Source: an uncultured Geobacteraceae bacterium
GTDB taxonomy: Bacteria; Desulfobacterota; Desulfuromonadia; Geobacterales; Pseudopelobacteraceae
Direction of reading: 5' to 3'
Assembly: GCA_903862245.1 (NCBI GenBank)
Contig: CAIOXL010000008.1
Span: 1-35,359, forward strand
Length of the DNA stretch: 35,359 nt
Shown: positions 15,786-34,083 of the stretch, piece after piece
Position numbering within the stretch: position 1 is the first letter of the stretch
Layout: the number at the start of each line of letters is the position of its first letter
Program-made: the position numbers and the translations under genes
The notes under the pieces: generated by a model
The model's input: only the letters and a program-made list of their open reading frames with translations
What the model was told of the DNA's origin: nothing
The model's database searches: none

Positions 15786-16152
15786 CGTTCCTCCAATAGT
15801 CAGACAGGTTTCTATAAAATGTGTATATATGGCAATCTGGTACGAGACACATGCAACTCACTGCTCATACCACTATTTTGAACTGACATAGTGAAGCCGC
15901 AGGAGTAATTACATTTTATGTGCCAAGCGATGTCTAATAAAAACAGCATGTTGCCGATTGTTGTGGGTCGTTTTGTTGTTGGGATTAATTGTAGCTGACG
16001 GGGATATACGAGCTTAGATTGCTGTACGGTCGGGAAATGCGGGAATTGTAAAAATATAGCGGGCTGTTACATTTATTGCGGGCAGGTTCAGACGTTCAGA
16101 GTTGCGTTCATCAGAATCTATTGTATCGAGCAGGCAAATATGGTGAATACCG
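15786..16152. other. Non-coding stretch between cpaB and the flp hairpin
   Basis: This part of the 414-nt cpaB-flp gap is AT-rich with no credible ORF. The only signal seen is the sigma-54-like element at 15910-15926, which faces cpaB. The rest, about 15927-16152, shows nothing recognisable. Confidence 0.5.
15910..15926 (-). promoter_or_regulatory. Weak sigma-54-like promoter for cpaB
   Basis: On the minus strand, TTGGCACATAAAATGTA has a perfect -24 element (TTGGCAC) but GT instead of GC after the N10 spacer. Transcription would start about 115 nt before cpaB. The element closely matches the one before tadE (16931-16947). Confidence 0.35.
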
Positions 16153-16930: not shown

Positions 16931-16947
16931 TTGGCACAGCCTATGTA
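16931..16947 (+). promoter_or_regulatory. Sigma-54-like promoter for tadE operon
   Basis: TTGGCACAGCCTATGTA carries a perfect -24 element, with GT in place of GC at the -12 end after a 10-nt spacer. It lies about 150 nt before the tadE ATG and faces it. Confidence 0.4.
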
Positions 16948-19560: not shown

Positions 19561-20940
19561 CTACTCCAGCGACTTCATCAGGTTGTATTTTTTTACCAGG
19601 TCGTACAGCGTCGGTCTGCTGATGCCCAGTGCCTCAGCCGTTTTGGCCATATTATTGTTCTTGCTTTCCATGGCAGCAACCACCATTTCCCGCTCGATCA
19701 TCTCCCGGGCATCTTTCAGGGTCAGTTTTGAGGGCCTGAAGAACTTTTCCTTCGTTGTCCCGGGAGAAAATATCAAGGCTTCCGGTTCAATTATGGTTTC
19801 GTCAGACATGATTACGGCACGCTGCACCGTGTTTTCCAGCTCCCGAACATTCCCGGGCCATTCATAGGATTCGAGCAGTTTCACGGCGGCGGCGCTGAAC
19901 CGTCGCGCTTTCTTCCGTAAATCAGTACCAAATCTGCGGAGAAAGAAGTTTGCCATCAGCATGATGTCACCATCCCGTTCCCGCAGCGGGGGGAGATGTA
20001 TGTGAATCACCGATATCCGATAGTACAGATCCTCACGAAAGCTGCCGGTCTCAATTTCCTTCGTGATGTCCCTGTTGGTTGCAGCAATGATACGGGCATC
20101 AACGGAGATGTCTTCTCTTCCGCCAACACGCTGGATTGTTTTTTCCTGGAGAAAACGGAGCAGTTTTACCTGAAGAGTGAGTGGCAGTTCACCGATCTCA
20201 TCGAGGAACAGCGTCCCCTTGTTGGCGTATTCCACTTTCCCCTGCACGCGGTTGTTGGCGCCAGTGAAAGCTCCTCGTTCGTGGCCGAACAGCTCAGATT
20301 CAAGCAGGTTTTCAGGGATAGCTCCGCAATTTATTGCTATGAAATCCCTTGTTTTTCTGGTGCTCAGATCATGAACCGCCCTGGCGACCAATTCTTTGCC
20401 GGTACCGCTTTCGCCGGTAATCAGTACTGCCGCACTCGATGAGGCAACCTTGCGGATAGAAGAAAATACCTCCAGCATGCGCGGTGATCCGCCGATAAGC
20501 CTTCCCGCGTTGAATCCGTGCTGATCCAGGCTGCTCTGTTGCAGGCGGATGTTATCCTTTTCAATTGCCGCCAGATGAAATGCTCGCGCGAGAATAACTT
20601 TCAACTCCGCGAGATCAAAGGGCTTGCTGTAATAATCGTAGGCACCGTTCTGCACGGCTCTTAAGGCATTATTGCGATCTCCATTACCGGTGATCATGAC
20701 TATTTTTGTAGCCGGAGCTCTGCGGAGGATCTCGTCAAGACAGTGAAAACCTTCTTCACAGCCGCTTGCATCAGGCGGCAGCCCAAGGTCAAGCGTCACA
20801 ACTTTGGGGACATGTTTGTGTATGAGCTGGAGCGCATCCTGGCGGTTGCCGGCAACGAAAACCTCATAATCATGTGCGAGACCCCAGCGCAGCTGGCTGC
20901 TTATTGTCTGGTCGTCTTCTATTATAACGAGCTTTTCCAT
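19561..20940 (-). CDS. prsR: PEP-CTERM-type response regulator PrsR (sigma-54 activator)
   Basis: An NtrC-type activator of 459 aa. The receiver (1-125) has Asp9-Asp10, phospho-acceptor Asp51 and Lys106. The AAA+ domain (about 145-380) has Walker A GESGTGKE, the sigma-54 contact loop GAFTGA at 223-228, and FLDEIGEL. A Fis-type helix-turn-helix ends the protein ([22 protein letters not shown]). The inserted [13 protein letters not shown] segment after Asp51 is typical of PrsR proteins, which act with PrsK on sigma-54 promoters for exopolysaccharide and PEP-CTERM genes. The frame is open to 21168, but the ATG at 20940 begins the receiver and has AAAGG before it. It lies 26 nt after prsK. Confidence 0.93.
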
Positions 20941-20966
20941 GAAGAACCTTTCCACACCTGCCGGAG

Positions 20967-23033
20967 TCAGGCCGCCTCCGCCTGAATTCTGGGGAGCCAG
21001 ACAGTAAATTCCGATCCTTGGCCGATGGTGCTTACAACTTCGATCCTGCCGCCGTGTGCCTCGATAATCTGCCTGCTCTGGTAGAGGCCTATTCCCATAC
21101 CCTGTTCCTTCGTGCTGGTGAACGGTTTGAAAAGTGTATGCTGCACAAACGCTTCCGCTATGCCGCACCCTTCGTCTGTAACACGAAAGAACAGACTGCC
21201 GTTTTCTCCCACCTCGACCTTTACCGGCTTGGTTCCGTTGGTCGCCTCGACCGCATTCAACATGAGGTTGAGTGCCACCTTCTGCAGCTCTTCCCGGTCC
21301 GCTTCGGCAATGACGTGGTCTCCTGTGACGTTCAGTAACGCACCATTTACCAGCGCTGCTGTTTCGTGTGCCATCTGGAAAAGATCTACCGTAGCCAAAT
21401 GGAGGGAATTTTTCTCCGGCAGCTGTTTCAAACGGAGGATCAGGGCATTCATTCTGGTCACAATGTTTTTCAGTGACACGAGCAGATCGCTTTGAAATGC
21501 CGGCAGACCGATGTGCTCTTGTGCGTTTTCAAGCATGAGGGAGAGGGCGGCAATAAGGTTTTTCAGGTCATGCATTACAAAGGTGGATACCTTGCCTACG
21601 GCTGCCAACTCCCGCGAGCAGGTCAGTTGATCCGAAAGCCTGAGATTCAGAAGTGCTGAAGCTGCCTGTTTTGCCAGAGTTCTCATCAGGTCGAAATCTT
21701 CATGAATATAGTTTTCATCTGAGCTGCGCGGCATTCCCAGCACAATAAAGCCATCTACAGAGCCGTTCATGAAAAGCGGTATGATAAAGCAGGCGGCGGC
21801 TTCGCTGAAATACGTCTTGTGCCGGTCGCTTTCAGGACATATGGCGACATTATCCCTGAGGTCCAGAATCCATTTGCACCCGGTTAACGATTCGATAATG
21901 GGATCGTTGATGGTGAAGGTTACATCACAGGTTTCCAGCGCAATATCTGCTGCCTGTCGATAGACGTCGCGCTCCTGGCTTATGATGAACAGCGCTCCTT
22001 TTCCCATGCCGAAGGTGTCACAGAATTCAGAAACTATAGAATGGAGAAGGCTGTCACTTGTCTGTGCTGCAGAAAGGCGGTCGGTAAACTGAAGCCACTG
22101 GTTACGATAGTCGTACTTGTGCTGGTAGAAGTTTTTCTGAATGAATATCCTTACTTTGCGCTTGACGGATTCTGAAAGAATGACAATGAACAGCCCCAAA
22201 CCGACAAAAATGGCGAGCGTGATGATCATGGCATGCTGAAAACCATTGCCGAAATACTTCAGCCCCTCACCGACAAGCCCGAGGCAGATGATGTAGATAC
22301 CGACGGCGAGAAGTACCACCGATTTGTATGCAAACTGAGGCGAAACGTGGACTGTGACCCCGCTGCCGCGTTTCAGGCGGGAATAGAATATTATTACTAC
22401 GGATACAATCAATACGGCAGACCGCATCGGTACCAGCTGCATATTAATTGTGCGGAATAACAGACCCTGACTGTAGTAAATCAACAGTGCTGAAAGGTAT
22501 GCTCCGGCACCGAGCAGCTCTAACTTGATTTTCCACCGTGAAGTCAGGGTTGTGTGCGCCAGGGTCCGTTCCAGCTGAATCAGGGCTGCAACCAGATACA
22601 CAAGAATAACAAGAAAAAATGCAAATCCGCTGTTGCTGAGGAAAAGGATTTTTTCAGTAAAAAAATCCGGTGAGTAGACAAATGAATGGGTGGGAAGCGC
22701 GACCGCTGCGATTAACAGGAGCGGCGATGCTGCCAGGAGAAACCGTACATGTGCCGGAAGGGCTTTGTAAGTAACGCTCTGCCGGCCGGCCGTCATGGCA
22801 TAGATGAGCCAGGCAGGGAGCAGTATCGCTTCAGTCGTAAGAGAGAACTTCTTCCATACGTTAAGCTGTTCCGGATTGCACAATGTTAGCAGGTCAAAAA
22901 ACTCTAGAAATGCGGCCAGCAAAACGGCACATGCAAGAGCCGCAGGCAGGGATAGAGCGCCATTCCTGAGTTTGAAGTAGAGCGGAAACAGTACCGCAAC
23001 AGTTATTGCAGTGATCGAAATTAACGTTAGCAT
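20967..23033 (-). CDS. prsK: PEP-CTERM-type sensor histidine kinase PrsK
   Basis: A membrane kinase of 688 aa. About eight to nine hydrophobic segments fill residues 1-290, a GAF-like domain follows at about 325-465 (GMGKGALFIIS, ACFIIPLFMNGSVDGFIVLG), then a dimerisation region with the probable phospho-acceptor His488 in MHDLKNLIAAL. HATPase_c has the Asn box LNLMLNAVEATNG, DEGCGI and GMGIGLYQSRQI. The HDLKN form of the H-box and the many-helix N-terminus are hallmarks of PrsK, partner of PrsR. The ATG follows the epimerase stop by 11 nt and lacks a strong ribosome site, suggesting coupling. The stimulus is unknown. Confidence 0.93.
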   Translation of the reverse strand: MLTLISITAITVAVLFPLYFKLRNGALSLPAALACAVLLAAFLEFFDLLTLCNPEQLNVWKKFSLTTEAILLPAWLIYAMTAGRQSVTYKALPAHVRFLLAASPLLLIAAVALPTHSFVYSPDFFTEKILFLSNSGFAFFLVILVYLVAALIQLERTLAHTTLTSRWKIKLELLGAGAYLSALLIYYSQGLLFRTINMQLVPMRSAVLIVSVVIIFYSRLKRGSGVTVHVSPQFAYKSVVLLAVGIYIICLGLVGEGLKYFGNGFQHAMIITLAIFVGLGLFIVILSESVKRKVRIFIQKNFYQHKYDYRNQWLQFTDRLSAAQTSDSLLHSIVSEFCDTFGMGKGALFIISQERDVYRQAADIALETCDVTFTINDPIIESLTGCKWILDLRDNVAICPESDRHKTYFSEAAACFIIPLFMNGSVDGFIVLGMPRSSDENYIHEDFDLMRTLAKQAASALLNLRLSDQLTCSRELAAVGKVSTFVMHDLKNLIAALSLMLENAQEHIGLPAFQSDLLVSLKNIVTRMNALILRLKQLPEKNSLHLATVDLFQMAHETAALVNGALLNVTGDHVIAEADREELQKVALNLMLNAVEATNGTKPVKVEVGENGSLFFRVTDEGCGIAEAFVQHTLFKPFTSTKEQGMGIGLYQSRQIIEAHGGRIEVVSTIGQGSEFTVWLPRIQAEAA

Positions 23034-23044
23034 GGTGACTGAAT

Positions 23045-24082
23045 CTATCTCGTATGCACAAGTTTCTGTAAGTACCAGCCCATAGCCGATTCCAGGCCCT
23101 CTTCAACGGAATGGGTCGGGGAATAGCCGAGTAACCGCTGTGCCTTACTGATATCCGCCTGTGAGTGGAGGACATCCCCAGAACGAAAATCACGGTACTG
23201 AGGGGTAGTCTTTCCCCCGGCCGCGTGGTCTGGCGGCATGTTTTTCTGCAGTAACTGATATAGTTCATTTAGCGAAATACGATTGTTGAGTGCAACGTTG
23301 TAGACCTGATTGACCGCTTCAGGGTTGCTTGTTACTGCCGCCAGAAGATTGGCCTGCACCACATTCTCAATGTAGCAGAAGTCCCGGCTCGTTTCGCCAG
23401 TGCCGTTGATGTACACGGTTTCACCGCTGCACAGTGCTGAGATCCAGTGAGGGATGACCGCTGCGTACGCACCGTTCGGATCCTGGCGTGGGCCGAACAC
23501 ATTGAAATAGCGGAGCCCGATTGTTTCCATCTTGTACAGGTGCGAGAACACATGAGCATACATCTCGGTGACCTTTTTGCTGACGGCATACGGGGAGAGT
23601 GGGTTGCCCGTGATGTTTTCGACTTTCGGCAGATCCGGCTGATCTCCGTATACCGCGCTGCTGCTGGCGTACACTACGCGTTTAACCTGGTTGTCACAGG
23701 CTGCCTTAAAGATAGCAAGGGTTCCGTTTACGTTGTTATCATTGCAGTTCAGCGGGTCTTCTATTGATCGGGGCACCGAGCCGAGCGCAGCCTGATGAAG
23801 GACAAGATCGATCCCCCTGCAAGCGGACAGGCACGTTGCAAAATTTCGTATATCTCCTTCAATAAGGCGGAATCTCTGCCACCGTTTCGCTCCGACCAGT
23901 TCATGAACATCCCGGATATTGCTCCGCTTTCCGGTTGAAAAATTATCAAGTCCGATCACGTGCTGATCAAGCTGGAGCAGCTGTTCAATAAGGTTGGAGC
24001 CGATAAATCCGGCTGCACCGGTAATCAGCCATCGTTTCGGTTTAGCCTGTATTTCCTTCCGTATGTCATCGTAGGCGGTCAT
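23045..24082 (-). CDS. tviC: UDP-GlcNAc/UDP-GlcNAcA 4-epimerase (TviC/WbpP type)
   Basis: A 345-aa extended short-chain dehydrogenase. The NAD-binding GAAGFIG is at 22-28, and the catalytic triad is Ser141/142 in SSSAVYG, Tyr165 and Lys169 in YAVSK. The start (about MTAYDDIRKEIQAKPKRWLITG) and the LDNFSTGKRSNI segment match WbpP/TviC closely. These enzymes interconvert the gluco and galacto forms of UDP-N-acetylated sugars or their uronic acids. With the dehydrogenase 16 nt upstream, the likely product is UDP-GalNAcA. The frame is open to 24163, but the ATG at 24082 has GGGGGAAA before it and matches family N-termini. Confidence 0.9.
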   Translation of the reverse strand: MTAYDDIRKEIQAKPKRWLITGAAGFIGSNLIEQLLQLDQHVIGLDNFSTGKRSNIRDVHELVGAKRWQRFRLIEGDIRNFATCLSACRGIDLVLHQAALGSVPRSIEDPLNCNDNNVNGTLAIFKAACDNQVKRVVYASSSAVYGDQPDLPKVENITGNPLSPYAVSKKVTEMYAHVFSHLYKMETIGLRYFNVFGPRQDPNGAYAAVIPHWISALCSGETVYINGTGETSRDFCYIENVVQANLLAAVTSNPEAVNQVYNVALNNRISLNELYQLLQKNMPPDHAAGGKTTPQYRDFRSGDVLHSQADISKAQRLLGYSPTHSVEEGLESAMGWYLQKLVHTR

Positions 24083-24098
24083 AATTTCCCCCAATATT

Positions 24099-25388
24099 TT
24101 ATAGTCTCCACACCCGAATTCCCGCATCATGCAGGGCCGTCTGATCAAATATTCCCTTGACATCTATCAGTACCGGATTGCCCGTAATCATCAGTGTCGA
24201 CAACTCTGCAATTGACCAGTTCCGGTACGCATTATGGGCCACAGCGGATATTACGGCCGCAGCAGGCTTCAATTCATCCAGCCCGAAAAGCGGGATACCA
24301 TACTCCCGAAGCGCCTCGGCAGGGTCTGCCAAATGGTCATACACCTGTACTGTGAGCCCGTATTCCTGAAGTTCCCGAATAATATCAACGACCTTCGAGT
24401 TGCGCAGGTCCGGGCAATCCTCCTTAAAGGTAAGCCCCAGGACGGTGACCGTGCTGCCGGAAATGAAGTGCCCGGCGTGAATCATCTCTTTTATGGCGTG
24501 CTGGGCAATGAATTTGCCCATGCCGTCATTGATCCGACGCCCGGCTAAAATCACCTGTGGTATGTAGCCGATCCGCTCAGCTTTATGGGTAAGATAATAC
24601 GGATCGACTCCGATACAGTGGCCACCAACCAAGCCCGGTTTGAACGGAAGGAAGTTCCATTTAGATCCGGCAGCTTCCAGCACATCTCCGGTATCGATCC
24701 CTAACCTTCGGAATATGAGGGCAAGTTCGTTCATGAGGGCGATATTCAGATCACGCTGGGTGTTTTCGATTACCTTTGCCGCTTCTGCCACCATGATACT
24801 CGGCGCACGGTGAACACCGGCAGTAACCACCCGTTCATAGGTTTGTGCGATTATTTCCAGCGATTCCTTATCCTGCCCTGCAACAACCTTTTTAATTTTG
24901 GTGAAAGAATGTTCCTTGTCACCCGGATTAATCCGCTCCGGGCTGTACCCGATTTTGAAATCACGCCCGCAGACCAGTCCCGATTCCTTTTCCAGAACCG
25001 GAAGGCACTCCTCTTCGGTCGCGCCGGGGTAAACCGTTGATTCGTACACCACGATGTCTCCGATCTTCAGCGCTTTACCGGCAGTGACCGAAGCCCTGAT
25101 AAGAAGAGAAAGATCCGGCTGATTGGCATCATTGACCGGTGTCGGCACGGCGATGATGTGGAAATCGGCATTTTTCAGTTCATTAATGCTTGAGGTGTAG
25201 AGAATATCTGAGGCACTCAGCTCATCAGGAGCAATTTCCCCTGTGCGATCATGGTTGCGCTGAAGTTCTGCAATGCGGGTCGGGTTGATATCAAAGCCGA
25301 TGGTTTTTGCGCCGGTGCCGAAGGCGACTGCGACCGGAAGACCGACATAGCCAAGCCCGATAACGGAAACATTTCTTAAAGTATTCAA
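24099..25388 (-). CDS. tviB: UDP-N-acetylglucosamine 6-dehydrogenase (TviB/WbpO type)
   Basis: A 429-aa nucleotide-sugar dehydrogenase that makes a UDP-N-acetyl uronic acid using two NAD+. GLGYVGLP at 11-18 binds NAD, YESTVYPGATEEECLPVLE and GYSPERINPGDKEH are WbpO/TviB-type signatures, Lys205 lies in AEAAKVIENTQRDLNIA, and the catalytic Cys258 is in GGHCIGVDPYYL. It is the first gene of the operon tviB-tviC-prsK-prsR, so a sugar-precursor pathway and its likely regulators are made together. A 486-nt divergent gap lies upstream. The precise substrate (GlcNAc versus GalNAc) cannot be fixed by sequence reading. Confidence 0.92.
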   Translation of the reverse strand: MNTLRNVSVIGLGYVGLPVAVAFGTGAKTIGFDINPTRIAELQRNHDRTGEIAPDELSASDILYTSSINELKNADFHIIAVPTPVNDANQPDLSLLIRASVTAGKALKIGDIVVYESTVYPGATEEECLPVLEKESGLVCGRDFKIGYSPERINPGDKEHSFTKIKKVVAGQDKESLEIIAQTYERVVTAGVHRAPSIMVAEAAKVIENTQRDLNIALMNELALIFRRLGIDTGDVLEAAGSKWNFLPFKPGLVGGHCIGVDPYYLTHKAERIGYIPQVILAGRRINDGMGKFIAQHAIKEMIHAGHFISGSTVTVLGLTFKEDCPDLRNSKVVDIIRELQEYGLTVQVYDHLADPAEALREYGIPLFGLDELKPAAAVISAVAHNAYRNWSIAELSTLMITGNPVLIDVKGIFDQTALHDAGIRVWRL

Positions 25389-25874: not shown

Positions 25875-27299
25875 ATGACGGAAGTATCCCCTGAAAATAC
25901 ATGTGCGGTTTTGCTGGTCAGTGAAGATTCTCGGATTTTGGAGCAGACCAGGTCGCTGTTTTATGATGCCGGAATCAGTTCCGTCATCGCACTTGCAGAT
26001 AGCCGCGCCACACTGCCGTTTCTCCAGCAGCATGTCGTTTCACTGGTGGTTCTTGACATGACTTCCGGCATGAAACAGTCTGAATTACTTGAAAAAATCT
26101 GCAGGGATTACCCGGATCTTCCTGTTATTGTTGAATCAGAGTCCAATGACGCGAAGATGGCTGTGTACTGCATGAAGGCTGGAGCTGTTGATTATGTAGT
26201 CATTCCTGAGGAATCCGGCCGGTTGATAGCGGCGGCTGAAGATGCTTTGAACAATAATTATCCTCTGCAGGAAGCATCCTCTTTAAAGGATTATCTGCTT
26301 AATGACCGCTTGGTTCACGCCGAGGCTTTTGCCGAAATACGGACCGTTTGCAGAAAGATGCGTTCAATCTTTCAGTATACCGAAGTTGTCGCCTGTTCAC
26401 CGCAGGCGGTACTGATAACCGGAGAGACCGGAGTCGGCAAGGAGCTGTTTGCGCGTGCTATTCACCGGATAAGCAGATTACGGGGGCAGTTTGTCAGCAT
26501 AAATGTCGCCGGTCTTGATGACACAATGTTTTCGGATACTCTGTTCGGTCATAAGAAAGGAGCTTTTACCGGAGCGGACCAATACCGGGATGGTTTGGTC
26601 AGCAAGGCGGCGATGGGTACACTGTTTCTTGATGAAATAGGAGATCTGAATGAGTTGTCACAGGTCAAACTTTTGCGGCTGCTTCAGGAGCGCGAGTACT
26701 ATCCTGTCGGCTCTGACCAGGTCAAGGCAAGTTCCGCACGAATTGTTCTGGCGACAAATGTAAATCTTCAGGAGCGCATTAAAGAAGGGCGTTTTCGTCG
26801 GGATCTTTATTACCGGCTTTGCAGCCATCAAATCCACATACCGGCGCTCCGGGAGCGGCGTGAGGATATTCCGCTTCTGCTCGCAAGTTTCATTGCAGAG
26901 TCTGCCCGTCACTTTGGCAAAGATGCACCCGCCGTTTCTCCGGAGCTGAAGCAGGCGCTTTCAGAATATGATTTTCCGGGAAATGTCAGGGAACTTCAGG
27001 CCAGGGTGAGCGATGCGGTAGCCCGCAACGAAGCGGGCACGCAGCTCTCTCTTGATGATTTTTCAGGGATTTTGACTGCAGCACAACCACGATCATTCGC
27101 CCCCTCTGCTGTTCCGGTTTCCGTTACGGCGGGGGTCTACGGTCTTTTTGGCCGCCTGCCGACGTTTCGTGAAATCGAAAATTACCTGATAGTAGAGGCG
27201 TTGAAGGTGTCTGAAGGGAGTTATGCGGTCGCCGCCTCCATATTGGGGGTGACGCGTCAAACTATCAGTAAACGTCTGAAATCAATTGAATCTGTTTGA
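25875..27299 (+). CDS. Sigma-54 activator with degenerate receiver (tandem paralog 1)
   Basis: An NtrC-like protein of 474 aa. The receiver (about 10-125) keeps phospho-acceptor Asp61 and acidic residues Glu17-Asp18. However, the near-invariant lysine before the cis-proline is Ile110 (YVVIPEE), so phosphorylation-driven switching may be lost or altered. The AAA+ domain is complete, with ITGETGVGKE, the sigma-54 loop [16 protein letters not shown] and an arginine-rich LRERREDIPLLL. A Fis-type helix-turn-helix closes it (AVAASILGVTRQTISKRL). It is clearly paralogous over its full length to the next gene, including the unusual KDYLLNDRLVHAEAF linker, and is likely cotranscribed with it. GAGGGTGA precedes the ATG. 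Confidence 0.9.
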   Translation: MTEVSPENTCAVLLVSEDSRILEQTRSLFYDAGISSVIALADSRATLPFLQQHVVSLVVLDMTSGMKQSELLEKICRDYPDLPVIVESESNDAKMAVYCMKAGAVDYVVIPEESGRLIAAAEDALNNNYPLQEASSLKDYLLNDRLVHAEAFAEIRTVCRKMRSIFQYTEVVACSPQAVLITGETGVGKELFARAIHRISRLRGQFVSINVAGLDDTMFSDTLFGHKKGAFTGADQYRDGLVSKAAMGTLFLDEIGDLNELSQVKLLRLLQEREYYPVGSDQVKASSARIVLATNVNLQERIKEGRFRRDLYYRLCSHQIHIPALRERREDIPLLLASFIAESARHFGKDAPAVSPELKQALSEYDFPGNVRELQARVSDAVARNEAGTQLSLDDFSGILTAAQPRSFAPSAVPVSVTAGVYGLFGRLPTFREIENYLIVEALKVSEGSYAVAASILGVTRQTISKRLKSIESV

Positions 27300-27339
27300 A
27301 CATGCTGTCTTACCACCACATTCTGGAAAGGGTATTGCA

Positions 27340-28758
27340 ATGAAATCCAAGATAAACTCACAGCTGCCGATTCTGTTAATCGATGATGACCCTGTTGTGC
27401 TCGAAATACATGTTACTTCCCTTATGAGTGAGGGGGTCAGTAATGTTCTCACACTTTCTGACAGTAGAAAAACCCTGCAATTTCTTGAAGATAATCCGGT
27501 CTCAATTATTGTTCTTGATCTGATGATGCCGCATGTTTCCGGCCTGGAACTCCTCCCGATTCTGATTCGGAGCTTTCCCCAGATACCGGTTATCGTTATG
27601 ACGTCATCCGATGATATTGAAACAGCTGTCAGTTGTATAAAAGCGGGTGCCGTTGATTTTCTGACCAAACCGGTTGAAGTTGAACGGCTGCTGCTCAGCG
27701 TTGAGAATGCACTGCATATTAATGAATTATCCATGGAAAACCGCAGCTTGCGGGAATATCTGCTGAATGACCGTTTGGAGCACCCTGCCGCGTTTGATGC
27801 GATTATCACAACCAGCAAAAAAATGCGGGGCATCTTTCAGTACATCGAGGTGATTGCAAAATCGGACCAGCCGATTCTGGTAACGGGAGAAACCGGTGTC
27901 GGCAAGGAGCTGATTGCACGGGCGATCGGAGCACTAAGTGGGCGAAAAGGGGCCTTTGTTACGGTCAACGCTGCCGGACTTGATGATAATATGTTTTCAG
28001 ATACCCTGTTTGGACACAAAAAGGGGGCGTTTACCGGTGCCGACCAGGCACGTGACGGGCTGATAAGCACCGCTGCCGGCGGTACCCTGTTTCTGGATGA
28101 GATAGGTGATTTGAACGAGGCATCCCAGATTAAGCTGCTCAGGCTCATTCAGGAACAGGAGTACTACCCGGTCGGGTCGGACATATTAAAACGGACGGAT
28201 GCACGTTTGATTGTAGCCACCAACCACGATCTTACCAATCTTATTGCGACCAACAAATTCCGCAAAGATCTCTACTACCGCCTCTGTGCCCATCACATCC
28301 AGATACCTCCGCTCAGGGAACGTCGCGAAGATATTCCTTTTCTGTTGGACCATTTTCTCGATAACGCATCGAAGTCTTTCCGCAAACCAAAGCCGGTCCC
28401 TTCGCGTGAAGTCACCGCACTGCTGTCAACCTATCATTTTGAAGGAAATGTACGCGAACTTCATGCCATGATTTTCGATGCCGTCGCTCGATATACATCC
28501 GGCCTGCTGACGCTTGACTGTTTCACCGGTCTGGCAGGCAACGACTGCAGTCAGGGCAACAGAGCATTACTGGCTCCCAGTAAAGAGGTGGATGATGTGC
28601 TGTACAGTTTTTTCGGTCGGTTTCCGACCATAAAGGAGATGGAAGACTATTTGACTTCGTCCGCCATGAATCTGACCAGCAGTAACCAGAGATCCGCTGC
28701 TCTGCTGCTTGGTATAGCCCGTCAGACACTCAGCAAGCGCCTTGGTGTCGCAGGGTGA
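27340..28758 (+). CDS. Sigma-54-dependent response regulator (tandem paralog 2)
   Basis: A 472-aa NtrC-type activator with an intact receiver: Asp15-17, phospho-acceptor Asp60 (IIVLDLMMP), Thr87 and Lys109 (FLTKP). The AAA+ domain carries VTGETGVGKE, GAFTGA and [10 protein letters not shown], and a Fis-type helix-turn-helix ends the protein (SAALLLGIARQTLSKRL). The frame is open from a TTG at 27286, but the ATG at 27340 is preferred because AAAGGG precedes it and the receiver starts shortly after. It differs from its upstream twin mainly in the repaired receiver chemistry, which suggests the pair could form heteromers. No cognate kinase is adjacent on the same strand upstream; the hybrid kinase at 31219 is a possible partner. 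Confidence 0.91.
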   Translation: MKSKINSQLPILLIDDDPVVLEIHVTSLMSEGVSNVLTLSDSRKTLQFLEDNPVSIIVLDLMMPHVSGLELLPILIRSFPQIPVIVMTSSDDIETAVSCIKAGAVDFLTKPVEVERLLLSVENALHINELSMENRSLREYLLNDRLEHPAAFDAIITTSKKMRGIFQYIEVIAKSDQPILVTGETGVGKELIARAIGALSGRKGAFVTVNAAGLDDNMFSDTLFGHKKGAFTGADQARDGLISTAAGGTLFLDEIGDLNEASQIKLLRLIQEQEYYPVGSDILKRTDARLIVATNHDLTNLIATNKFRKDLYYRLCAHHIQIPPLRERREDIPFLLDHFLDNASKSFRKPKPVPSREVTALLSTYHFEGNVRELHAMIFDAVARYTSGLLTLDCFTGLAGNDCSQGNRALLAPSKEVDDVLYSFFGRFPTIKEMEDYLTSSAMNLTSSNQRSAALLLGIARQTLSKRLGVAG

Positions 28759-28814
28759 GTAAAGGAGTTTTAGTTATTTCTGTGCCACCTTTGTAACAGC
28801 AGTAAAATTATTAC

Positions 28815-28835
28815 ATTGAACAGTTTACGTTCAAT
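28815..28835. promoter_or_regulatory. ATTGAAC-N7-GTTCAAT inverted repeat upstream of glmS
   Basis: Perfect 7-bp inverted half-sites separated by 7 nt, in the 295-nt gap between the second activator and glmS. The same half-sites form the palindrome at 25781-25796 with a 2-nt spacer. The 5-nt difference equals about half a helical turn. Confidence 0.45.
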
Positions 28836-28957: not shown

Positions 28958-28974
28958 CTGGCACAGAATGTGTA
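28958..28974 (+). promoter_or_regulatory. Sigma-54-like promoter for glmS
   Basis: CTGGCACAGAATGTGTA has a perfect TGGCAC -24 box with GT at the -12 end after a 10-nt spacer, about 80 nt before the glmS ATG. Two sigma-54 activators are encoded directly upstream. Confidence 0.35.
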
Positions 28975-29053: not shown

Positions 29054-30883
29054 ATGTGTGGTATCGTTGGGTATATGGGAAATCATGACGCCATGCCGGT
29101 TATTATGAGCGGGCTTAAGATGCTTGAATACCGTGGCTATGATTCTGCAGGAATCTGCACCATCGATGCAGGAGCTGTCGAGATCCGTCGCAGTTCCGGC
29201 AAGTTGATTAATCTGGAACAACTCATCAAGGATAAGCCGTTGTCCGGCACCATCGGCATTGGGCATACCCGGTGGGCGACACACGGTAAACCAACGGTAG
29301 CTAATGCCCATCCCCATAAAGGGGGGGGGGTCGTGATTGTCCATAACGGGATCATAGAAAATTATTTGACCCTGAAGGATGAGTTAATCACCAAAGGCCA
29401 TGAATTTACGTCTGAAACGGATTCAGAGGTTGTCTCGCATCTTATTGATGAACATCTGAAAACGTCGGAATCTCTTGAAGAGGCGGTGCAGCAGGCGCTA
29501 AAGCATCTGAAAGGGGCGTACGCACTCTGCATTCTGAGCCAGAAAGACGATAAAACGTTGATCGCGGCCAAATTGGGCTCCCCAATGGTTATCGGTATCA
29601 AGGGGGACGAATATTTTGTTGCATCCGACATGCCTGCTATCATTTCACATACACGGGAAATTGTGGTTATGGAAGATGGTGAGATGGCGATTTTCAGGAA
29701 CGGCGGTGTAAAATTCTGCACCACCGACGGCTCTGAAATCACCAAGGCTTCCCGCTTTGTTGACTGGTCTCCGTTGAAGGCTGAAAAAAACGGCTACCCA
29801 AACTTTATGCTGAAAGAAATTAATGAGCAGCCCCAGGCTGTCAGAAATGTGATCGCGGGTCGCCTGCTGGAAGAGATTGGTGACGTGTATCTTGAAGGTA
29901 TGAATGCTGATGACAGTAAACTGAACACATTTGAAAGAATTTGTCTGGTCGCCTGCGGCACGTCGTGGCATGCGGCGCTGGTTGGTAAATACTTGATTGA
30001 GGAACAGTGCAGGATACCGGTCGATGTGGAGATTGCATCGGAGTTCCGCTACAGGGACCCACTTGTTTCAGCAAAAACGCTCGTTATCCCGGTTTCCCAG
30101 TCAGGGGAAACGGCAGACACGCTGGCTGCATTACGTGAAGCCAGGGGCAAGGATGCATATATAGTGTCGATCTGCAATGTTGTTGATTCGTCAATCGCCC
30201 GTGAATCAGACGGGGTAATCTATACGCACGCCGGCCTGGAAATAGGAGTCGCTTCTACAAAAGCCTTTGTCACCCAGCTTGTGGCGCTCTATCTGCTGAC
30301 AATTCGTCTCGGGCGGGCAAACGGCACCATTGATCTGGCCAAAGGGCAACAAATGATCGTAGCACTGGGTGAACTTCCGGAACTGGTGAAAAAAACTCTG
30401 GAACTTGATCCGCAGATAGAAGAGATCGCCTGTGAGTATCTTACCTCCTGCGATGCCATCTATCTTGGACGAGGCATCAGCTACCCTATCGCTCTTGAAG
30501 GGGCTCTCAAATTGAAGGAAATTTCGTATATCCATGCAGACGGATATCCGGCCGGAGAGATGAAACATGGGCCGATTGCCCTGATCGACAGGGATATGCC
30601 GGTATTCGTTCTCGCTCCAAATGACCGGCACCTTGTCAAGGTCAGGTCCAATATGGAGGAGGTTATTACCCGAGGCGGCAAAGTCATTGCCCTCTGCTCG
30701 GAGGGAGATTCTGAAACAGGTCGGAGAGCGAACTTCACTCTTACTGTCCCATGGGCTGGAGAACTCCTGAATCCGGTCCTGTATTCGGTGGCACTTCAAT
30801 TACTGGCATATAACTTTGCTATTCTAAAAGGTAAAAATGTTGATCAGCCACGAAATCTGGCCAAAAGTGTTACGGTTGAGTGA
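29054..30883 (+). CDS. glmS: Glucosamine-6-phosphate synthase GlmS
   Basis: A 609-aa glutamine:fructose-6-phosphate amidotransferase, the first committed step to UDP-GlcNAc. The start MCGIVGY gives the N-terminal nucleophile Cys2 after Met removal. YRGYDSAGI and GHTRWATHG mark the glutaminase domain. Two SIS sugar-isomerase domains follow, with [29 protein letters not shown] and the C-terminal [13 protein letters not shown]. The frame extends upstream to 28970, but MCGIV must be the start, and AGGGGAG precedes it. Length is normal. An uninterrupted run of ten G at 29321-29330 lies in the glutaminase coding sequence. It supplies the amino sugar pathway used by TviB/TviC as well as the cell wall. 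Confidence 0.97.
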
Positions 30884-30912: not shown

Positions 30913-31116
30913 ATGTTGAACAGAGCATGTGAAATACCATCAAGCGAACTCATCGTAGCCTCCAGTTATCGTGGGCTGCAGTACGCGGTTAGCGCACTGA
31001 CCGGAGATGTGCAGCCTCCCTGCTGTTTCTGCACGGACCGGCAGATATTTGTCTGTTCCGAGTCAGGTCAGGAATGCGACAAATTCATGAGATACTATTC
31101 AAATTATGAAGCATAA
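30913..31116 (+). CDS. Small Cys-rich hypothetical protein downstream of glmS
   Basis: Not recognised. The preferred start at 30913 gives 67 aa, with GGGGGGAG just before the ATG. The frame is also open from an ATG at 30883 that overlaps the glmS stop. The protein has no signal peptide or membrane segment. Its C-terminal half holds five cysteines in PPCCFCTDRQIFVCSESGQEC, which could suggest a small metal-binding or redox knuckle, and it ends in KFMRYYSNYEA. It is probably cotranscribed with glmS, 29 nt away. It may be a real small protein; no family can be named. Confidence 0.5.
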   Translation: MLNRACEIPSSELIVASSYRGLQYAVSALTGDVQPPCCFCTDRQIFVCSESGQECDKFMRYYSNYEA

Positions 31117-31218: not shown

Positions 31219-34083
31219 TTGACGCGTATATACAGGATATTGATTGTCGATGATGAACTTGCCGCCGCCAACGCACTCAGCAAGTCGCTGCTGAGATTCG
31301 GCTACGATGTCGTCGCCATAATCGACAACGGGGACGAAGCTGTTGCGACGGCATCTGCCTTGCTTCCCGATCTGATACTCATGGATGTGTCGCTCAAGGG
31401 AACCATGGATGGTATTACCGCCGCCAGCCGGATCTCAGCAGAATTGGACGTACCGATAATTTTCCTGACCGCTTATGGAGATGACGCAACATTTTCCCGC
31501 TCCAAAATATCAAACGCGTCTGCTTTTCTTGAAAAACCGGTCAATCTCAGCCATCTCAAGCACTGTATCGAGATGGCTATTTACAAGCAGTCCCAGCAGC
31601 GTATTCAGAAACAGATGGAAAAAGAGCTTCGTCAGAGCGAGCTGCAAACGCTTGCCCTGTTAAAGACGATTCCTGACCTTATCCTCCGCTGCCGGAATGA
31701 CGGCACCATACTGTTCTGCCAAAAACCTGCCTCCGGCGATTTTTCGTTTATTTCAGATGACCTGATCGGAAAAAAAATCAGCGACGTCCTGATATCCGGT
31801 CCGGACTCCGCCTATTGTTACGACATAAAAGAGGGCTTCAGAACAGAGGATCTGCAGCTCAGTTTTAACTTTTCTGTTCAGCGTGTTCCACGGTATCTGG
31901 AAATGCGCTCAGTCCGGAGCGGGCCGGACGAAAATATTGTCATTGTGCGCGATATAACCGAGCGCAAGCTGTCGAACGATAAAATATTGCGCTATATGAG
32001 CGAGCTCAAGACTTCTCAGGACCTGACGCTCCAACAGTCCAAAGAACTCACTGTCGCACATAATCAGGCGGAAAAGGCCAACCGGGCGAAAAGTGACTTC
32101 CTGGCAACCATGAGCCATGAAATCCGCACTCCGATGAACAGTGTCATCGGTATGTCAGAACTGCTGCTTAAAACCAGTCTATCGGAACAGCAGCAGCTTT
32201 TTGCCAATGGTATTCTTGATTCTGCAACTATTCTGCTTGATATCATCAACGATATACTGGACTTTTCAAAGATAGAGTCGGGAACAGTTGAATTGAAAGC
32301 CGAATCCTTTGATTTGCGCTCGGTATGTGAAAACGTGGGGGAACTTCTCGCACAACGAGCAGTTGCCAGGAATGTGGAGTTGATAATCGGTTGTTCACCG
32401 GAGGTGCCGCCGCGTTTTGTCGGCGATGCCGGGCGGATCAGGCAGGTTCTGGTAAATCTTGTTGGAAATGCGATCAAATTTACCAGCTGCGGCCATATAA
32501 TTATTGACGTTGAATGCAGTGGAAAAAGCGACATGGATGCCTGTGTCAAGGTAAAGGTTAAAGATACCGGCATAGGTATTCCAGATCAGGCAATCTCCCA
32601 GCTGTTCCAGAAGTTTTATCAGTCAGATTCTCCGCAGCATCACGTTCAGGGCGGCACCGGTCTTGGTCTTGCCATCTGCAAGAACCTGGTTGAGTTGATG
32701 GGGGGCACCATCGGTGTTAAAAGCAGTGAGGGGAAAGGCTCAACATTCTGGTTTACCATGACGCTCCCACTTGATACCTCCTACCGGGAAAAACCGGTTG
32801 AAAATTGTGATTTAGCCGGTATTCGTGTTCTGATTGTGGATGATATCCGCCAAAATCGTCTGATACTCTCCAGATACTTTTCCTTCTACGGTTTGCGCTG
32901 CAGTATGGCATCATCCGGAGATAAGGCTCTGGAAATGTTGAGTGGAGCCCAAAGTACTGACGATCCTTACCGGATTGTTCTCATAGACCAGAATATGCCG
33001 GACATGGACGGAGTGACGCTCGGCAGAAGAATTAAGACGGAAAAAAAACTTGCCAACATAAAATTGATACTCCTGTCGTCTGCTTCTCCGGTTATTGATA
33101 CTTCTCCGGACTTTCCGAACACGGTGTTTTCAGCGTATTTATCCAAACCGTTTTATCGCTCTCGTGTACTGAATGCGCTCAGGGTCGTTTTACTCTGCTC
33201 TCTGCCGCAAAGCAGCTGCAATTATGCCGCAAAAGACGATGTCCAGTCATTTGGTCCGACGGCGGATCTCCGTACTCCGGATGTATCAGAGAAGCTTCTT
33301 GTACTTGTGGCTGAGGACAACCCTTCCAGCCAGATTGTGGCGGTCAGCATGCTGCAACTTATCGGCTGCAGGGTTGATGTGGTGTCAAGCGGAAGGGACG
33401 CTGTTAAGATGGTCTGTCAGCATCAGTATGATCTGGTGCTCATGGATTGCAATATGCCGGATATGAATGGTTTTGAGGCTACCAAGGAAATCCGGCGGCT
33501 GGAGGGGAGAAAGAAACACACTAAAATTGTTGCACTAACTGCGAATGCCATAAAGGGCTTCCGGGAAAAATGTCTCGCAGCCGGAATGGATGATTACCTG
33601 AGCAAGCCGATCCGCACCAGTACATTGGAGGAAGTTGTAACCCGCTGGGCGACACCTCTCCGGCAACTACCCCCCGGAAAGCAGCTACACCAAGCTGAGG
33701 ATAAATACCTGGAATCAGTTCCAGGCACGGTGTTTAATGCGGCACGGCTGCAAAAACTGCTGCGGACATTCAAAAAAACAGGCAAGGATTTTGTGCCGGC
33801 TGTGGTTGAGCCGTATTTGAAAAATGTTGAAAAACATATACCCTGGCTGTATGCAGCGGTTGACGAAAAGAATTTTACGGGAGTGTGCGATACGGCGCAT
33901 TTTCTTCTCGGCGGGAGCAGAAATCTGGGGCTGGAGAAGATTTCTGAAATCTGCACCGGCCTTCAAGACAGTGCAAATCATGACAATCAGGATATAGTAA
34001 AAGAGCTGGTCATCGCCCTTGAACGGGAATTGCCGCTTGTTAATATACACGTGAATGACTTGCGGGAGAAGGGGCTTATTTAA
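31219..34083 (+). CDS. Hybrid histidine kinase: REC-PAS-HisKA-HATPase-REC-REC-HPt
   Basis: A soluble phosphorelay kinase of 954 aa. An N-terminal receiver (about 5-120; Asp56, Lys106) is followed by a PAS-like domain (about 140-250), a short coiled coil, and HisKA with His300 ([10 protein letters not shown]). HATPase_c has [16 protein letters not shown] and GTGLGL. Receiver two has Asp590, receiver three Asp743, and the C-terminal HPt carries His894 ([17 protein letters not shown]). All phospho-sites are present, so an internal His-Asp-His relay is possible. The start is a TTG at 31219, supported by GGGAG 8 nt before and by the receiver starting at once; no ATG lies nearby. It could be the phosphodonor to the tandem activators. 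Confidence 0.93.

Follow-up and report, generated by a model that had tools for sequence, protein, structure and literature searches.

A small four-cysteine protein gene before a hybrid histidine kinase in Geobacteraceae, and its likeness to phage proteins

What does a short frame wedged between a glmS gene and a hybrid histidine kinase gene encode, and to which of these neighbours, if to either, is it functionally tied? The question is raised by a stretch of 35,359 nucleotides from an uncultured Geobacteraceae bacterium (contig CAIOXL010000008.1), here termed the window. The initial annotation, made from the letters of the sequence alone, described a 67-77-aa open reading frame that follows glmS, has a strong ribosome site and five cysteines in about 20 residues, resembles no known family and could be a metal- or redox-sensing partner of GlmS or of the next kinase. 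The features of the locus are listed in Table 1. The two sigma-54 response regulators that precede glmS are tandem paralogs, with cross-matches of about 51-57% in same-genus relatives, and no membrane sensor domain was found in the kinase by Pfam.

Table 1. Features of the locus and related upstream elements in the window
Feature	Position	Strand	Basis or remark
Small Cys4 protein gene	30913..31116	+	67 aa; core PPCxxC-x7-C-x6-C-x2-F-x2-Y; homologs and selection
Cys4 core	31021..31077	+	C37 31021-31023, C40 31030-31032, C48 31054-31056, C55 31075-31077; alignments
Hybrid histidine kinase	31219..34083	+	Pfam: three REC, HisKA, HATPase, Hpt; PAS only at E 0.1
glmS paralog	29054..30883	+	NCBIfam TIGR01135; start set by MCGIVGY motif
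Sigma-54-activating response regulator (REC-AAA+)	27286..28758	+	Pfam; orthologs 71-88% identity
Paralogous sigma-54-activating response regulator	25875..27299	+	Pfam
TGGCACAGAATGTGTA, conserved element upstream of glmS	28959..28974	+	sigma-54 -24-like; -12 half non-canonical
TGGCACA-N5-TGTA element	15910-15925	-	before cpaB
TGGCACA-N5-TGTA element	16932-16947	+	before pilus-like gene (our reading; no NCBIfam match)

The frame opens with an ATG at 30913 and closes with a TAA at 31114-31116; its start lies 29 bases past the glmS stop (TGA, 30881-30883), so that it does follow glmS, and its end lies 102 bases before the kinase start. Alternative GTG or ATG starts further 5′ would give products of 78 or 77 aa. 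The ATG has the same position in all seven same-genus copies (the window's included), each of which has 67 codons, and these align without gaps or indels. The 67-aa start is thereby supported, and within the size range first proposed this is the favoured length. In the two copies from a sister genus (G045 and G052) the most plausible start, by our choice, is a TTG, which yields 71 and 79 aa. The ribosome site, previously called strong, is moderate in the window, where a run of G is followed by GGAG near the ATG; in three relatives (G018, G029 and G028) it is a clear GGAGG.

Differences among the seven same-genus copies fall mainly at third codon positions; between the small genes of G020 and G028 there are 7/13/34 differences at positions 1/2/3. 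The dN/dS ratio is 0.04-0.28 in 13 of the 21 same-genus pairs, and is undefined in the other eight, where dS is saturated. By comparison of sequences, the frame is confirmed as a real gene, far beyond chance, with its same-genus copies under purifying selection. A decaying or chance frame of no function, to which the patchy presence and apparent loss in several lineages might point, has a near-negligible probability and is already refuted by frames that are open in nine of nine genomes, with invariant cysteines and purifying selection, unless all copies spread recently, which is itself unlikely because they are 39-57% identical to the window's copy.

The cysteines of the 67-aa protein are at positions 6, 37, 38, 40, 48 and 55, and the last five do lie close together, within 19 residues. 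C37, C40, C48 and C55 are invariant in nine of nine homologs and display the spacing CxxC-x7-C-x6-C. The fifth, C38 (31024-31026), is variable and is C, Y or S among the homologs. The initial annotation had made its case depend on conservation of the frame and cysteines in relatives; it survives, since relatives retain the frame and all of the five cysteines but C38. In the alignment, sixteen columns, counting that of the start, are invariant; besides the four cysteines these comprise, among others, P35, P36 and G52.

Neither Pfam (six of the nine homologs), NCBIfam (four of nine) nor PHROGs (six of nine) gave a match that passed the cut-off or had a convincing E-value, the best E being about 0.1, and for the copies compared with these models the earlier statement that the protein belongs to no known family is borne out. 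One model, phrog_4674, was set aside; its E was only 0.19, and a search in 138 genomes gave three matches. A PDB sequence search with the small protein returned E values of 2 or more only. Proteins of the DksA/TraR type and zinc-ribbon proteins share the small size, the four cysteines and the single metal that is proposed below, but are expected to have two CxxC pairs, whereas the protein here has one CxxC and two lone cysteines; there was no Pfam match above cut-off. A literature search, which covered part of the literature, found no publication on the gene.

An all-helical protein is predicted. An AlphaFold model from seven rows has a mean pLDDT of 65, and one with four viral rows added has a mean of 83, a gain that might come from the extra rows alone; both place helices at residues 10-30, 36-39, 42-51 and 56-66. 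In fold searches the first model gave a single match in PDB (E 8.9) and 20 viral ones (E 2.7 or more), none of them convincing, and the second model gave no PDB match. This failure provides no evidence for a new fold, because small helical chains match poorly.

Searches by tblastn of 98 related genomes, each searched singly, revealed eight clear homologs besides that of the window (E 3.5e-10 to 8.4e-22). Six belong to the same genus, with E 8.4e-22 to 1.3e-16; the other two come from a sister genus of the family (G045 and G052, E 1.5e-13 and 3.5e-10), one of these two loci being that of Pelotalea chapellei. Weak matches, with E above about 1e-3, were treated as chance, and part of them were inspected. 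A profile built from the nine homologs, the window's included (A1), found the same nine carriers among 76 family genomes, with only weak matches (E 0.004 or worse) in ten others. Among 141 genomes of the order it added three at E below 0.001, of which G078 alone was judged convincing, and among 395 genomes sampled from the phylum, with at most 15 candidates scored per genome, at least two more, both weak. Six loci from a profile scan of genome contigs, assigned to Geobacter sp., to Deltaproteobacteria, Desulfuromonadaceae and Proteobacteria MAGs and to Pelotalea chapellei DSM 13688, coincide with G018, G029, G020, G027, G030 and G045. Thus, with carriers in nine of 76 family genomes and no convincing orthologous gene elsewhere in the order and phylum samples, the small gene is not general in the wider group.

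All seven loci from the same genus share the gene order regulator, glmS, small gene, kinase. The second regulator is found upstream in six of the seven; the other, G027, is on a 3-kb contig that covers no more of the regulator and kinase than their ends. The order in G045 and G052 is regulator, small gene, kinase, with glmS absent from the 14-kb regions read and the second regulator not seen beside the small gene. The small gene has a fixed place before the kinase, which is the next gene downstream in all nine loci (the G027 contig ends inside it), and is directly 3′ of glmS in seven. Its distance from the kinase is 79-129 bases in the same-genus loci, 313 in G045 and 0 in G052, where the TGA of the small gene abuts the GTG of the kinase and an AGGAG is found inside the 3′ end of the small gene.

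Orthologs of the regulator are present in 18 of the 76 family genomes, that of the window included. All nine carriers of the small gene are among these 18 and none is among the remaining 58, a co-occurrence with a chance of 3.4e-7 if the genomes are assumed to be independent, which they are not. In the other nine loci (G013, G006, G034, G037, G098, G019, G106, G039 and G049) the kinase comes after glmS at a distance of 3 to 256 bases, and none of the three forward frames of these gaps displays the Cys4 pattern. The kinase of G049 aligned over just its first 168 residues (48%), and regulator and glmS are separated there by other genes. As nine loci with the regulator, G013 among them, lack the small gene, it is accessory, and the system functions in its absence. 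Carriers and non-carriers (six against six) are separated by no kinase residue column, a comparison that has no power because random splits average 0.03 columns.

A kinase and regulator tree, which we rooted on G106 and G039, comprises 16 genomes, as G027 and G049 had no usable protein and were omitted. Carriers occupy the deep branches of G045 and G052 and are otherwise scattered, and the non-carrier G013 is sister to the carrier G028 with a support of 100; six inner supports are 17 to 74. The simplest reading of these sequences would be an old gain of the small gene with several losses. Transfer of the gene between loci is possible.

The genome of the window has two glmS copies that are 63% identical, the other being at 15016-16842 of contig C195 (genome G000). 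Six genomes were examined in this respect: G000, G013, G018 and G039 have two glmS each, and G045 and G052 have one (at E below 1e-100), elsewhere in the genome and 64-65% identical to that of the window. The window's glmS is therefore a second paralog. It is the copy that is embedded among two-component genes.

The idea that the small protein serves GlmS, the product of the upstream gene, as partner or regulator goes back to the initial annotation. The short distance to glmS in the window and the directly downstream position in seven of nine loci are in its favour, as is the adjoining glmS being a second paralog with a setting of its own. Nevertheless, G045 and G052 keep the small gene with no glmS adjacent, their one copy being elsewhere, and nine loci have glmS at this place but no small gene. 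Homologs are found beside glmS in the same genus and without it in the sister genus, and the small gene is not general in the wider group. A glmS partnership is unlikely, to the point that little weight can be given to it, and a linkage to the kinase is better supported.

Upstream sequences bear on how the locus may be transcribed. Of the 18 upstream regions, 17 contain the sequence TGGCA[CT]A-N5-TG; sixteen loci have it between -94 and -106 relative to the start, and G019 has it at -65. In G045 a TGGCACA element is found upstream of the small gene itself, and G052 is without it. Of the two halves of a sigma-54 promoter, the element resembles the -24 one; a canonical promoter is not claimed, because the -12 half is GT or GA and not GC. 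The strict pattern of a canonical sigma-54 site was found in none of the 18 upstream regions, and a loose GG-N10-GC in five, the window's not among them. The pattern TGGCAYRNNNNNTGYA, written after the window's own site had been seen, occurs three times in the window against 0.23 expected, that site being one of the three. Genome-wide it occurs 13 times against 14 for a reversed control. As the genome total is no higher than that of the control, only the clustering (three of 13 in the window, Poisson 6e-4) is unusual. Two TGGCACA-N5-TGTA occurrences precede cpaB and the pilus-like gene listed in Table 1 and the third is the element before glmS itself; perhaps these represent a shared sigma-54-like promoter.

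Other features of the window were noted. TAACA...GTAAAAAT...TAACA-like repeats, at about 28793-28816 in the gap between regulator and glmS, are by eye conserved in many relatives, and are possible candidates for enhancer sites. Rfam at gathering scores showed no match in the window. At 19561-23033 on the minus strand are the genes of PrsK and PrsR, which belong to the XrtA/PEP-CTERM system and both score above their NCBIfam cut-offs; they are adjoined by nucleotide-sugar genes at 23045-25388.

The leading inference is a metal- or redox-related role near the downstream kinase. In its specific form, which we hold tentatively, the protein would be small and helical, bind metal and serve the neighbouring phosphorelay as an accessory. 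Transcription would come from the promoter region that follows the genes of the sigma-54 response regulators, and the small gene is probably co-transcribed with the kinase as one operon. In the model of the protein, the N-terminal helix spans about residues 10-30 and the four-cysteine core comes after it; the core would probably hold one metal, presumably Zn2+ and less likely an Fe-S cluster. The protein would bind the kinase, or else its regulator, and tune its activity up or down. This reading draws on four cysteines at fixed spacing in nine genomes, on the kinase as the next gene in each, on the co-occurrence with the regulator, on the low dN/dS and on the all-helical model. The kinase link is favoured further by G052, where the two genes touch, and by G045, with its TGGCACA element before the small gene. 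On the other hand, the accessory reading is weakened by the nine loci that have the regulator and lack the gene, and by the zero gap to the kinase being confined to G052; the lack of a kinase around the phage relatives and of a convincing fold match also count against it.

Might the protein be an Fe-S redox sensor that feeds back on the kinase? We consider this doubtful. The four conserved cysteines, and the anaerobic, metal-reducing life of relatives, would suit such a sensor, but we know of no Fe-S class with CxxC-x7-C-x6-C spacing, and the viral relatives discussed below would make a plain zinc site more likely. A precedent exists in FixT of Caulobacter, an Fe-S-binding single-domain receiver and a feedback inhibitor of FixL (PMC7078487). 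FixT shows that a single-domain protein with a four-cysteine Fe-S site is able to inhibit a kinase and may itself be a product of the system under its control (PMC7078487). As a single domain with a 4-Cys motif in a two-component regulon, FixT offers a possible model for the small Cys4 protein. FixT is a receiver domain, whereas the protein here has 67 aa and an all-helical prediction, and none of the four homologs compared with Pfam Response_reg had a match.

The same core is met in phage surroundings. The G078 frame matched by the A1 profile (E 1.2e-6) has prophage-like surroundings, with integrase- and KilA-like frames by our reading. A further profile, A3, which includes the G078 protein, matched G639 (E 5.1e-7) between what we read as replication-like genes on one side and a gene resembling ssb on the other. 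In viral contigs, three scans by DNA pattern yielded 4, 3 and 9 stretches, overlapping, for a total of ten loci (L139-L148), where by our rough calculation chance would give about one match in the collection; the frames include, for example, PPCMGCSDLTVAFCDDSGLECREFHSYCCNYK. Scans of the viral contigs with the A1 alignment and with the G078 protein confirmed no relative. Phage and plasmid records searched with a homolog, and phage records searched with prophage proteins and a viral protein, gave no convincing match. Twenty-two phage records had a best E of 0.5 and were rejected; the one inspected, from a Vibrio phage, matched on the strand opposite to a capsid gene.

Spacing within the core is identical in the chromosomal and the prophage or viral-contig proteins. 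The phage-type rows have PCxxC-x7-C-x6-C with a G four residues past the third cysteine, a pattern by which the viral rows were chosen; the prophage rows L040 and L131 were chosen by profile. More fully, the unnamed phage and prophage proteins (L139-L148, L131 and L040) share PPCxxC-x7-C-x6-C-x2-[FY] with the chromosomal protein, L147 having E for the first P. A T or S before the G, not required by the search patterns, is found in nine of ten rows, as it is here. In contrast, the N-terminal halves differ from that of the chromosomal protein and are hard to align with it, the proteins sit among phage genes, and some are longer with extra domains: L139 fuses the core to DUF4406 and L140 has an HNH-like part. 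In a BLOSUM comparison with shuffled sequences, pattern positions being fixed, seven of ten rows have a z of 2 or more; the weaker ones are L145 (0.75), L147 (-0.03) and L143 (-2.24, worse than shuffled). The combined Stouffer z over ten rows is 5.4, or 4.1 with E also fixed, in which the scores of L040 and L131 are not independent of resemblance because these rows were found by profile. The link of the Cys4 core to the prophage and viral-contig proteins is a moderate one on these alignments, and the chromosomal and phage cores probably share a common ancestor.

By our reading, the Cys4 proteins or domains of L134, L145, L147, L139 and L141 are near replication- or nucleotide-like genes.

A serious rival arises here, although we think it unlikely: that the protein came from phages, is a Cys4 (zinc) protein related to nucleic acids and does the same job as its phage relatives, perhaps DNA or RNA binding in or near replication, its adjacency to the kinase being historical. 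It is consistent with the shared core and spacing in prophage-like G078 and G639 and in the viral contigs, with the position of some relatives near ssb-, rusA-, DnaB- or DNA polymerase-like genes (our reading), and with the DUF4406 fusion. No kinase was noticed by eye around the phage relatives in the stretches read, and the ancestral role may therefore concern nucleic acids. Against this, the chromosomal copies are at one locus in nine of nine genomes, and no phage genes were noticed in the window, the regions of the relatives having been compared by blast with window proteins. The poorly alignable N-terminal halves also argue against it, as do the two of ten rows that show little likeness beyond the pattern (z 0.75 and 0) and the one that is worse than shuffled (z -2.2).

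A broader proposal joins the two: Geobacteraceae would have co-opted a small Cys4 protein from the phage replication region, and this protein would respond to metal or redox state and modulate a sigma-54 phosphorelay. The phosphorelay would drive the second glmS and, through the promoter element common to them, perhaps also the adjacent Flp pilus operons. This proposal is speculative, and we regard it as improbable in its entirety. The phage connection is nonetheless a worthwhile lead. The small proteins constitute a family without a model, with a clear four-cysteine signature, that is apparently common to a bacterial signalling operon and to phages. If the phosphorelay role is true, the protein would be one more small metal protein acting on a hybrid kinase; if a phage role is primary, it would provide a handle on an unnamed phage gene.
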